A stretch of 64,000 bases of DNA from Polaromonas glacialis (GTDB taxonomy: Bacteria > Pseudomonadota > Gammaproteobacteria > Burkholderiales > Burkholderiaceae_C), in assembly GCF_000709345.1 (NCBI RefSeq), contig NZ_KL448323.1, positions 2,920,346 through 2,984,345 on the forward strand, given 5' to 3'. The notes beneath the pieces were generated by a model that saw only the letters and a list, made by a program, of their open reading frames with translations, did no database searches and was not told where the DNA came from. Numbering within the stretch: position 1 is the first letter of the stretch; each line of letters begins with the position of its first letter. The translations under genes were made by a program, and so were the position numbers. This document shows positions 60,708 through 64,000 of this stretch, piece by piece.

Positions 60708-61439
60708 ATGAGCACCACTGCCGACCTTGTCGCCGTCCTGAAAAAAGAACTGAAAACCGCGCGGATGACCTACGCCGACCTGGCGCTGGCGCTGGGCATG
60801 GCCGAGTCCAGCGTCAAGCGCATGCTGGCCAAAGGCGACATGCCACTGTCGCGCATCGACGCGATCTGCCGCGCATTGAAACTGGACTTTGCCGACCTGG
60901 CGCGCAAGGTGGCCGATGATCAGCCGCTGCTGGCCCAGCTGACCGAAGCGCAGGAAAAGGCCGTGGTGGCCGACAAGAAACTGCTGCTGGCCGCCATCTG
61001 CGTGCTGTCGCAGTGGACGCTGGAGCAGATCACCGCCCGCTACCGGCTGACTGAGGCCGAATGCATCGCCTACCTGGCGCAGCTGGACCGCATCGGCATC
61101 ATCGAACTCAAGCCACAGAGCCGCTACCGGCTCAAGCTGGCCAAGACCTTCCGCTGGCGCCCGCATGGCGCGGTGATGGACTACTTTCGGGACCATGCGC
61201 TGCTTGACTATTTTTCCGGCGGATTCAACGGCGCCGGCGAGGGCCTGCTGCTGGTGCATGGCTCGATCAGCCGGGGCCTGGCGCCGTCGTTCATGGAACG
61301 CATGCAGCGCGTGGCGCAGGATTTTGCCCAGCAGCATCAGGCCGACCAGAAGTTGCCAGAGAAGGACCGCGAAGGCTACACGCTGCTGCTGGCGATGCGC
61401 AGCTGGGAATTCGGGGCTTTCGCGGCACTGCGGCGCTGA
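60708..61439 (+). CDS. XRE-like helix-turn-helix regulator with C-terminal domain
   Basis: The 243-residue protein has an N-terminal XRE-type HTH (YADLALALGMAESSVKRML, then ISRIDAICRALKLDFADLAR-like segment near 45-65). The remainder, with TLEQITARYRLTEAECIAYL and a possible second winged helix, has no named domain that I recognise; it is like uncharacterised HTH regulators of proteobacteria. It is divergent from the MFS-acyltransferase gene with 287 bases between them and may control it. The rest of that gap holds nothing I recognise. Confidence 0.75.
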   Translation: MSTTADLVAVLKKELKTARMTYADLALALGMAESSVKRMLAKGDMPLSRIDAICRALKLDFADLARKVADDQPLLAQLTEAQEKAVVADKKLLLAAICVLSQWTLEQITARYRLTEAECIAYLAQLDRIGIIELKPQSRYRLKLAKTFRWRPHGAVMDYFRDHALLDYFSGGFNGAGEGLLLVHGSISRGLAPSFMERMQRVAQDFAQQHQADQKLPEKDREGYTLLLAMRSWEFGAFAALRR

Positions 61440-61725: not shown

Positions 61726-61769
61726 AACTTTCTTTGGTGGGCTTTCTTTTTTGCCCAGAAAAGAAAGTT
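61726..61769. repeat. Nested inverted repeat
   Basis: AACTTTCTTT pairs with AAAGAAAGTT (ten bases), and inside it GGGC pairs with GCCC. The same AACTTTCTTTG...AAAGAAAGTTA pattern is a common intergenic repeat in this bacterial family as I recall it. It follows a stretch of unassigned sequence and may be a terminator or a REP-like element. Confidence 0.5.
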
Positions 61770-61911: not shown

Positions 61912-62676
61912 CTAGCCTCGGGACTGGAAGGTTCGGGGAAACGTGACGGGCTGAAGATGCTTGACCAGCCGGTAGCCCATCGGGGCGCGCGGCGCGCCAG
62001 TGGCCTGCAGCCCCGCTTCTTCCAGAAAATCCGGCGCGGCCAGTGCGCGGGTGCGAAAGGCGCTTTTATCCAGGGGACGGCGCAGCACGATTTCATAAAC
62101 CTGCTGCAATTGCGGCAGCGTGAACGGCTCGGTCAGCAGGAAGGCCGGCAGCGAGGTGTATTCGACCTTCGATCGCAACCGCTCCACGGCAGCCGCAAGG
62201 ATAAGTCCATGGTCAAACGCAAGCCCGTCGGCCGTTTGCGCAGCGTTTGCCGCATCGACCGGAAACCAGCGCACATCGGCGGCATTGGAGCCTTTGCGCG
62301 GCTGCAGGCTGGCCCATGGCAGCAGCGCGAAATAAACCTGGGTCACCGACCAGCCGCGCGGATCACGCGTGCGTCCACCCCAGCTTCCCAGCTGCTCCAG
62401 GTAAGGGCTTTCAACTGCGGTTTTGTCGCGCAGCTTGCGCAGCGCGCAGGCGCGCAGGTCCTCGTCGTGCGCCACGTCCACAAAACCGCCCGGTAGCGCC
62501 CATTGCCCCGGAAACGGCTCCCTGGCGCCGGATGGACGCTGGACCAGCAACACCTGTAGCGCGTCGGCTATGAGCGTGAAGATCACCACGTCCACCGTCA
62601 CCAGCGGCCGCTCGATGTCTTTTACCCGGGCCGCATACGCAGTGCGCCGGGCGGGTGAATCGGAAGGGTCGGTCAT
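61912..62676 (-). CDS. NrtR-like regulator: degenerate Nudix domain plus winged helix
   Basis: The 254-residue protein has an N-terminal Nudix fold (TVDVVIFTLIADALQVLLVQR and FPGQWALPGGFVD) in which the Nudix box reads ALRKLRDKTAV, so the catalytic RExxEE glutamates are replaced by K, D and K. The C-terminus (TEPFTLPQLQQVYEIVL, then FRTRALAAPDFL) is the winged helix typical of NrtR, a repressor of NAD metabolism that senses ADP-ribose. The start at 62676 has AAGGAG. It is divergent from an ADP-ribosylglycohydrolase gene, a typical partner, with a palindromic operator between. Confidence 0.85.
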   Translation of the reverse strand: MTDPSDSPARRTAYAARVKDIERPLVTVDVVIFTLIADALQVLLVQRPSGAREPFPGQWALPGGFVDVAHDEDLRACALRKLRDKTAVESPYLEQLGSWGGRTRDPRGWSVTQVYFALLPWASLQPRKGSNAADVRWFPVDAANAAQTADGLAFDHGLILAAAVERLRSKVEYTSLPAFLLTEPFTLPQLQQVYEIVLRRPLDKSAFRTRALAAPDFLEEAGLQATGAPRAPMGYRLVKHLQPVTFPRTFQSRG

Positions 62677-62705
62677 TCAATCTCCTTGCGCTTTGATTTC
62701 AAATG

Positions 62706-62738
62706 TGTATTATCCAACTTTGAAAGTTGCCCTATACA
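62706..62738. promoter_or_regulatory. Putative NrtR operator: 33-bp symmetric palindrome
   Basis: CAACTTT-G-AAAGTTG (62715-62729) is a perfect palindrome centred on 62722. TGTAT (62706-62710) and ATACA (62734-62738) form a second exact pair at symmetric positions. It overlaps TATTAT (plus) and GATAAT (minus) -10-like hexamers of both divergent genes, so one bound repressor could shut both. Confidence 0.7.
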
Positions 62739-62764
62739 ACTCATCAACACAAAGGAACCGCCTC

Positions 62765-64000
62765 ATGTCCCCAGCCACCCTTCTCACCAGTTTCAACCGC
62801 CCGCTGCGCGTGGCACAGGTTCACGCCGGCCCGGCGCTGGGCAGCGTCGGCATCACGCTGTGCCCCGGAAAATGGCAGTCGGTGTCCGTCTCGGGCGTCT
62901 GGCAGCGCGACCTGGCCACCGACCTGGACGCGCTGCAGGGCTGGGGCGCCGCCGCCGTGGTCACGCTGATGCCGCTGGATGAACTCAAGGCGGTGCAGGC
63001 GGGCGGCATCGGCGGGGCCTGCGAGGCGCGCGGCATGGAATGGCACCATCTGCCGGTTCAGGATGTCGATGTGCCCGACGCCGCTTTTGAAACCGCCTGG
63101 CTATATGCCGGGCTGCGCCTGCGCGCGCACTTGCGTGCCGGGCGCAAGGTGCTGCTGCACTGCCGGGGCGGCCTGGGGCGCAGCGGCACCATTGCGGCGC
63201 GCTTGCTGGTCGAACTGGGCTGGGACGCGCAACAAGCCATCCGCGCAGTGCGTGCGCAGCGCCCCGGCGCCATCGAAACCCGTGCCCAGGAGGCGCATGT
63301 GCTGAACACGCAAGTTGCGCCCGCCGACGAAAGTGCCGCCGCCCGGGCACTGGGCTGCATTCTGGGCGGTGCGGTCGGCGATGCGTTTGGTTATGCCATC
63401 GAATTCGACCGCTGGGACGCCATCTGCCGCCAGCACGGACCGCGCGGCCTGTGCGAGCCGGTGTTGCGGCATGGCAAGCTGGTGGTCAGCGACGACACGC
63501 AAATGACGCTGTTCACGCTGGAGGCCATGGCCGTGACGCTGTCCGGCCAGTTGCCGCCGCTGTTTGCCGAAACGCTGGCACGCCCGCTCCAGGCTGCCTG
63601 CCGGCGGGCTTACCTGCGCTGGGGCACCACGCAGGGCATCCATGCAGCGGGCAAGGATGCTGACAACGCCACCTTGCACCTCAGCCCCGCCATGCGCCAG
63701 TCACGCGCACCGGGCAACACCTGCCTGTCAGCCGTGCGCGCAGGCGCCACCGGCACCGTGATGAGCCCTGACAACCAGTCCAAAGGCTGCGGCGCCGTGA
63801 TGCGCACGGCGCCCATCGGATTGATCGAACAGATCAGCCCGGAACTGGCGATGGCGCTGGGCGACGCGGCCGGGGCGCTGACGCACGGCCATATCGACGG
63901 CTGGCTTCCCGGCGGCGCCTTGAGTGCGATGGTTCGGTTGATTGCCCAGGGGGAAGACCTCGTTCCGGCCGCATGCCACGCGCTGCGCCTGCTGACCGAA
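62765..64000 (+). CDS. Dual-specificity phosphatase - ADP-ribosylglycohydrolase fusion (3' end beyond window)
   Basis: The visible 412 codons encode two domains. Residues about 20-180 are a CDKN3-like cysteine phosphatase: the P-loop HCRGGLGRSG holds C133 and R139, and D100 or D102 in VQDVDVPD is the likely general acid. Residues about 193 onward are a DraG/ARH-type ADP-ribosylglycohydrolase: LGCILGGAVGDAFGYAIEFD, then SDDTQMTLFTLEA with the magnesium-binding DDT at 243-245. The second metal motif near the C-terminus is not reached. ARH enzymes remove ADP-ribose from proteins or nucleic acids. The gene is divergent from a NrtR-like regulator that may respond to the ADP-ribose released. Confidence 0.88.
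   Translation, partial: MSPATLLTSFNRPLRVAQVHAGPALGSVGITLCPGKWQSVSVSGVWQRDLATDLDALQGWGAAAVVTLMPLDELKAVQAGGIGGACEARGMEWHHLPVQDVDVPDAAFETAWLYAGLRLRAHLRAGRKVLLHCRGGLGRSGTIAARLLVELGWDAQQAIRAVRAQRPGAIETRAQEAHVLNTQVAPADESAAARALGCILGGAVGDAFGYAIEFDRWDAICRQHGPRGLCEPVLRHGKLVVSDDTQMTLFTLEAMAVTLSGQLPPLFAETLARPLQAACRRAYLRWGTTQGIHAAGKDADNATLHLSPAMRQSRAPGNTCLSAVRAGATGTVMSPDNQSKGCGAVMRTAPIGLIEQISPELAMALGDAAGALTHGHIDGWLPGGALSAMVRLIAQGEDLVPAACHALRLLTE

Follow-up and report, generated by a model that had tools for sequence, protein, structure and literature searches.

Divergent nrtR and phosphatase-ADP-ribosylglycohydrolase fusion genes of Polaromonas glacialis as a candidate ADP-ribose-inducible system

In a stretch of 64,000 nucleotides of the 5.28-Mb Polaromonas glacialis genome (C1:2920346-2984345; referred to as the window, to which plain coordinates relate) a gene for an NrtR-type regulator lies back to back with a gene that joins a phosphatase domain to an ADP-ribosylglycohydrolase (ARH) domain. 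On balance we lean towards the view that this pair is a self-contained, ADP-ribose-inducible eraser of ADP-ribosyl adducts that is repressed by NrtR, and that its role is probably defence or damage reversal. The evidence supports the NrtR switch: it comprises two genes, catalytic motifs that are intact, operator-like sites that recur at related loci, fusion-linked regulators from more than one clade, and a patchy, accessory distribution. Relatives were collected by a single scan for close relatives through the genomes of 84,980 species, which yielded 46 loci, 27 of which carry phosphatase and ARH together. Where single loci have to be told apart they are given as L numbers (the window locus is L002), genomes as G numbers and contigs as C numbers.

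The NrtR regulator

The nrtR gene (61912-62676, minus strand) encodes a protein of 254 amino acids with a Nudix-fold sensor and an NrtR winged-helix DNA-binding domain (Pfam NUDIX 58.8 bits, NrtR_WHD 56.2 bits, both above the gathering cut-off), and it is the single NrtR gene of this genome. Since the Nudix box reads RKLRDK, the catalytic glutamates are gone, as an earlier note made from the letters of this DNA had already recognised. The closest solved structure is SoNrtR of Shewanella (3gz5/3gz6, E 4.1e-48). Excerpts of the respective publications state that ADP-ribose suppresses the DNA binding of SoNrtR (PMC4666351) and releases MsNrtR from DNA, at a high concentration of 50 mM (PMC6800001). 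R47, the apparent alignment match of Arg41 in SoNrtR, is conserved in the window protein and kept in 39 of the 41 NrtRs compared. With the NCBIfam model NF050029 for the ADP-ribose (ADPR)-responsive repressor the protein scored 208.3 bits, below the equivalog cut-off of 400, and it is therefore a family relative and not that equivalog.

All four fusion-adjacent regulators from Comamonadaceae (L002, L033, L034, L035) have a dead Nudix box. RExxEE is kept in all 12 other fusion-adjacent NrtRs (L038, L042, L043, L044, L045, L047, L048, L050, L052, L054, L057, L060), and also in the NrtR of L141, whose adjacency to its fusion is not established. Some fusion-linked NrtRs outside the Comamonadaceae may therefore hydrolyse their own signal, ADP-ribose.

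Tandem operator-like sites between the two genes

The two genes are separated by a divergent control region of 88 bp (62677-62764). It holds two predicted operators, to which we infer that NrtR binds: operator 1 at 62702-62720 (AATGTGTATTATCCAACTT, two mismatches to the pattern WAGTKKN7MMACTW) and operator 2 at 62724-62742 (AAGTTGCCCTATACAACTC, one mismatch), the two starts being 22 bp apart. The earlier note had seen a single palindrome at 62706-62738. The operator-like symmetry is there, and it is better read as these tandem sites; their inner halves join in the perfect CAACTTTGAAAGTTG at about 62715-62729. The same layout, two tandem pseudo-palindromes of 19 bp with starts 22 bp apart, is found in all four intergenic regions from Comamonadaceae. 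A scan of 62600-62900 for a consensus promoter found none.

The pattern was then counted across 17 intergenic regions, 16 of them adjoining fusions and one adjoining an ARH-only gene (L008). At one mismatch or less there were 25 sites, whereas dinucleotide shuffles (300 rounds) averaged 0.34 and never exceeded 3. When two mismatches were allowed, 14 of the 17 regions had two sites, L038 and L047 one each, and L042 none. Inside the adjoining genes, over equal lengths, no site was found at two mismatches or less. The recurrence of operator-like sites over homologous loci is beyond chance, unlike the two sites of the window taken alone.

Similar sites accompany the nearest regulators that are linked to NAD salvage. 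Two genomes of the same genus (L080, L081) carry NrtRs with 64% and 63% identity to that of the window, divergent from a QNDF-motif gene that is followed by pncB (a Pfam match in L081; the L080 copy reads nearly alike at its start). Such sites occur twice in L081, at a spacing of 25 bp; in L080 the score picks out one, and a weaker second one is visible by eye. A guess at pncA for the gene between nrtR and pncB was rejected; by eye its product looks like a QNDF-motif protein, and the L080 copy is without a Pfam match. At the 3.5-kb locus of the pncB-like gene of the window genome no site at two mismatches lies upstream of the gene; two weak two-mismatch sites are found, one within the gene match and one downstream. 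A genome-wide search for AAGTTGTN5ACAACTT with two mismatches gave 6 places versus 9 for the backwards control, and the regulon is therefore not readable from such a pattern scan.

The fusion enzyme

The fusion gene starts with the ATG at 62765 on the plus strand, 88 bp from the divergent nrtR. Its window part covers 62765-64000; the whole gene (L002:3111-4757, 548 amino acids) ends at 64411 in window coordinates, so that its last 411 bases lie outside the window. The phosphatase domain (62918-63301, plus strand) matches Pfam PTP-SAK at residues 52-179 (45.5 bits versus a cut-off of 27), with further matches to CDKN3 and Tc-R-P. Its loop HCRGGLGRSG contains C133 and R139. D100 is a candidate for the general acid, a role that we presume from the family. 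The ARH domain (residues 197-508, PF03747 ADP_ribosyl_GH, 186.4 bits; 63353-64000 for the window part, plus strand) has the first metal motif, DDT, at residues 243-245. The second (residues 484-490, L002:4560-4580) lies just past the window end. The earlier note had described a back-to-back fusion of a cysteine phosphatase (C133/R139) with an ARH domain, and this holds; its fear that the C-terminal metal motif might be missing was unfounded, as HDGDSDST (H483-D-G-D486-S-D488-S-T490) is present. Both the CX5R signature (C133, R139) and the paired ARH metal motifs (DDT 243-245; D486, D488, T490) are complete. C133, R139, D243, D244, T245, D486, D488 and T490 do not vary among the 27 aligned fusions, which are the window protein and those of 26 of the 27 scan loci; L056 was omitted, its fusion reading in two frames, and the L034 fusion is cut at the 3' end by its contig. 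In the fusions of L052, L053, L054 and L057 (not L050) the phosphatase loop is altered in addition to the loss of D100, with Cys and Arg kept. The branch without D100 perhaps has a changed substrate, or a phosphatase domain that only binds.

An AlphaFold2 model of the fusion, based on 26 aligned rows (L056 and L059 omitted), reached a mean pLDDT of 91.6 and a pTM of 0.92. Comparison of this predicted model by VIA-align placed the ARH part next to ARH3 (2qty, Z 36.3, root-mean-square deviation 2.6, 303 aligned), ARH1 (6g28, Z 34.2) and DraG (2woc, Z 32.4), and the phosphatase part next to KAP (1fpz, Z 22.2, root-mean-square deviation 1.9, 164 aligned, 27% identity). The ARH part shares about 25% identity with ARH1 and DraG and about 20% with ARH3, values too weak to name the linkage that is cut. 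It also scored below the equivalog cut-offs for DraG (TIGR02662, 71.1 versus 337 bits) and Tri1 (NF041672, 61 versus 490 bits).

Distribution and origin of the pair

The earlier note had called the fusion unusual. It is indeed uncommon, though not undescribed, with 27 further loci and the architecture already in print (PMC9503650). Among fusion proteins with a name, those nearest to the window's come from Polaromonas (89% and 82%). Of the 87 genus genomes, 3 have a full-length fusion. In a sample of 200 genomes of the family the only full-length match was in the window's own genome; the others match one domain, among them G061 with a 51% match to the phosphatase part that contains two stops. 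The FIST-domain gene that neighbours the fusion was matched in 79 of the 87 genus genomes. Among 30 FIST loci that we compared, three adjoin the fusion, and in four of the 27 others (L111, L115, L116, L117) the helix-turn-helix (HTH)-type gene that borders the pair in the window adjoins FIST, in L111 at a distance of 5 bp; the neighbourhoods of the others are different. The pair is either an accessory insertion or has been lost.

An nrtR gene is immediately divergent in 15 of the 27 fusion loci. In a tree of 40 NrtRs the 16 fusion-linked rows need at least two state changes, and a single clade of fusion-linked NrtRs was rejected (p-AU 1.1e-6). The tree had been seen before this test, which did not include the long-branch row L038; L141 (adjacency not established) was counted as fusion-linked, L185 was labelled as having a phosphatase-only neighbour and L190 an ARH neighbour. 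The four fusion-linked NrtRs from Comamonadaceae form a group (99/92) with those NrtRs of the same genus that are linked to pncB. In the tree of the fusions NrtR-linked and unlinked loci are intermixed (at least four changes). As fusion-linked NrtRs do not form one clade, the pairing probably arose more than once: the ADP-ribose sensor probably came to the enzyme repeatedly, or was exchanged.

Genomic contexts of relatives

The flanks of the scanned chromosomal fusion loci look mostly ordinary and differ between lineages; the calling of open reading frames missed genes in L008, L034, L056 and L059. Among 72,556 plasmid records, three matched the query over 80% of its length or more at one place. 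Two of them show an operon of AAA ATPase, WYL regulator, fusion, (in one of them) HEPN, PD-(D/E)XK nuclease and UvrD helicase, and in the third a hypothetical gene is divergent from the fusion. WYL regulators are also found near the fusion of L056 and near the ARH-only gene of L058. Of 61 loci on viral contigs, three cover both domains. On one of these contigs, a putative viral contig of 42 kb, a phage integrase and the fusion are about 3 kb apart (L199:732-7052), and the fusion may be prophage cargo; its reading frame of 685 amino acids has an extra C-terminal part. The two plasmid operons and this copy are settings of a defence-like kind. In the phage collection 10 records match the ARH part only, and none covers 80%. 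One Magnetospirillum assembly has two fusion copies (L036, L037), each divergent from a related protein of 220 amino acids, which in L036 is without a Pfam match.

Other loci show the sensor with parts of the enzyme. At L191:3813-5692 (G410:C1) a gene for TY-Chap3, which is among the chaperones listed in PMC9503650, is divergent from NrtR, and the NrtR gene overlaps a co-oriented phosphatase-only gene whose product is 51% identical to the fusion phosphatase; no ARH match was found in the 10.5 kb covered. At L192:1295-5232 (G407:C11) an operon-like row of DSP phosphatase, KptA and microbial PARG is divergent from NrtR and ARH. This arrangement would link such phosphatases to ADP-ribose-phosphate chemistry, with the limit that the DSP phosphatase is just 28% like that of the fusion. 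In L196 the only partner facing NrtR is ARH, in L074 ARH comes after PARG, and in L193 and L194, from other genomes, NrtR is linked to nadA. From L191, and to a lesser degree from L192, it would seem that phosphatases of this kind have a place of their own in the pathway of the sensor.

Past the window end, the fusion gene overlaps with its 3' end the end of the convergent FIST-domain gene. On the other side an HTH-type gene (60708-61439, by eye) flanks nrtR across a gap of roughly 470 bp. This gap contains an inverted-repeat-like element, CTTTCTTT...AAAGAAAG (61728-61767), in a single copy in the window. Elsewhere in the genome, on contigs C1 and C3 and outside the window, there are four RES-domain matches, which are candidate NAD phosphorylases.

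Discussion

Fusions of this type were treated in a survey of 2022 by Iyer, Burroughs, Anantharaman and Aravind. Section 3.8 of this survey (PMC9503650) describes ADP-ribosylglycohydrolases (there ARG) together with a rhodanese-phosphatase, either within one polypeptide or encoded next to each other, with phosphatases in a little over 55% of ARG neighbourhoods and Nudix or WYL regulators in over 42%. TY chaperones, nucleases and helicases also occur in these neighbourhoods, and no coupled ADP-ribosyltransferase or sirtuin. The survey predicts induction by released ADP-ribose and a defence against viral ADP-ribosylation of host proteins. The window pair has the domain and regulator features of this ARG-centric kind, with ARG (ARH) and rhodanese-phosphatase in one polypeptide and a Nudix regulator. 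No ADP-ribosyltransferase or sirtuin was recognised by eye within 15 kb around the gene, where FIST is the only window neighbour that was profile-scanned. Unlike those systems the window locus is a bare pair of two genes without chaperone, nuclease or ARPP partner. Operators are not described in section 3.8, and the architecture itself is not new; what is new here is the evidence on the operators and on the separate origins of the regulator.

Compared to characterised regulators (SoNrtR, MsNrtR, P. aeruginosa NrtR) the window NrtR shares the Nudix and winged-helix domains, a degenerate Nudix box and palindromic sites in a divergent region; it differs from the NrtRs of NAD metabolism in that it is divergent from an ARH fusion and not from a NAD gene. 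The ARH part has the fold and the aspartate metal motifs of DraG, ARH1 and ARH3 (VIA-align Z 30.9 to 36.3); unlike these it carries an N-terminal phosphatase, and it stays below the equivalog cut-offs of DraG and Tri1. The phosphatase part shares the CX5R loop, the position of D100 and the fold with KAP (CDKN3), PRL, archaeal PTPs and Pfam PTP-SAK, and is unlike KAP, PRL and the archaeal PTPs in being fused to ARH.

As we picture it, NrtR bound to the two tandem operators would repress both its own gene and the fusion gene. ADP-ribosylation by a phage enzyme, by the toxin of a competitor or as a result of damage would give rise to free ADP-ribose, NrtR would leave the DNA, and the fusion would be made. 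Its ARH domain would strip ADP-ribose from the targets and thereby produce more inducer, while the phosphatase domain would act on a phosphate of the released product or of the same target. ADP-ribose as the ligand at this locus, the repression, the substrate and a defensive role are all what we infer. The idea of a feedback loop through ADP-ribose, raised in the earlier note, fits the biology of NrtR. As PMC9503650 proposes both induction by ADP-ribose and an antiviral role, the main idea of that note was already in print as a prediction; its observation is confirmed and its interpretation partly supported.

Several points weigh against an ADP-ribose-inducible eraser under NrtR control. No effector, chaperone or ADP-ribosyltransferase partner was identified in the window, and the window neighbours look ordinary (both judged from open reading frames by eye and one Pfam scan, of FIST). 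No adjacent nrtR is seen in 12 of the 27 fusion loci (in L053 the contig starts too near the gene to tell, and this genome has elsewhere in its assembly an NrtR that is 88% like that of L052), and NrtR control is therefore not essential to the enzyme. The intergenic region of L042 is without any site. The two sites of the window alone are within chance, since 37 of 100 shuffles gave two or more, and the size of the excess over all regions is overstated because the pattern was picked after the sequences were seen and several rows are near-copies. D100, present in the window protein, is absent in 5 of the 27 fusions (L050, L052, L053, L054, L057). Of the FIST loci of the genus that were compared, most of those without the fusion have other genes adjoining FIST, a clean empty site being the minority. 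Neither protein matched any family of the PADLOC (2023) models at E 0.1. Among the literature matches listed, whose coverage excludes most subscription papers, there was no wet evidence for any member of the fusion family.

The same loci can be read as a housekeeping arm of NAD turnover, in which ADP-ribose would inform NrtR of NAD breakdown, the fusion would return ADP-ribosylated small molecules or O-acetyl-ADP-ribose to use, and the pair would play no part in conflict. The closest kin of the window NrtR, adjoining pncB-type salvage genes with similar sites, the nadA-linked NrtRs of L193 and L194 and the mostly ordinary chromosomal flanks are in agreement with this. We nevertheless regard it as unlikely, as a salvage function fits poorly with a fusion that is as patchy as 3 of 87 genus genomes, with two plasmid copies among WYL, nuclease and helicase genes and another copy near a phage integrase, and with a pncB-like gene in the same genome that has no upstream site at two mismatches and just two weak sites, in the gene match and downstream.

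Less probable still, in our judgement, is that the fusion provides a missing phosphatase for phosphorylated ADP-ribose, either ADP-ribose-1''-phosphate (ADPR-1P; from the RES or the KptA route) or 2'-phospho-ADP-ribose (from NADP), and converts a form that NrtR may miss into the ADP-ribose that it senses. This would suit the cluster of DSP phosphatase, KptA and PARG in L192, the four RES-domain matches of the window genome, and NatT, a RES toxin that makes ADPR-1P according to an excerpt of PMC11535050. It would also suit L191, whose NrtR overlaps a phosphatase gene with no ARH seen; the phosphatase by itself can hence accompany the sensor. A partnership with KptA as a rule was nevertheless rejected, since KptA was found in 0 of 27 fusion genomes (completeness stated for one genome only), although in the unfused L192 it is adjacent. 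A partnership with RES was rejected as well: RES proteins occur in 12 of 27 fusion genomes versus 8 of 20 fusion-less controls, all controls and only a minority of the fusion genomes being of the same genus. Neither KptA nor RES follows the fusion from genome to genome, which speaks against an obligatory partner as the source of phospho-ADP-ribose. Among solved phosphatases, those closest in fold and sequence are protein phosphatases of the PTP type such as KAP. This KAP-like fold and the joint retention of Cys, Arg and the ARH motifs in all aligned fusions would instead suit an eraser of two protein marks, whose phosphatase dephosphorylates the same ADP-ribosylated host proteins and so reverses two modifications imposed by a phage. 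We find this the most doubtful of the readings: no protein kinase was among the Pfam matches of the subset of neighbours scanned, and the NrtR loci with phosphatase only (L191) or ARH only (L196) would be explained no less well by a small-molecule pathway common to both.

If the fusion were the missing phosphatase, the gene pair would detoxify the product of NAD-phosphorylase toxins or of RNA-end repair and report it via a regulator of the NAD-salvage family. It would then bear on questions raised in an excerpt of PMC11535050, namely whether ADPR-1P has a role of its own and whether NrtR distinguishes it from ADP-ribose. If, as we favour, the pair is an NrtR-repressed eraser of ADP-ribosyl adducts, it would be a compact test case for the 2022 prediction of dedicated inducible systems that undo ADP-ribosylation by viruses or rivals, and one that is easy to test because of its tandem operators, its complete enzyme and its small size of two genes.

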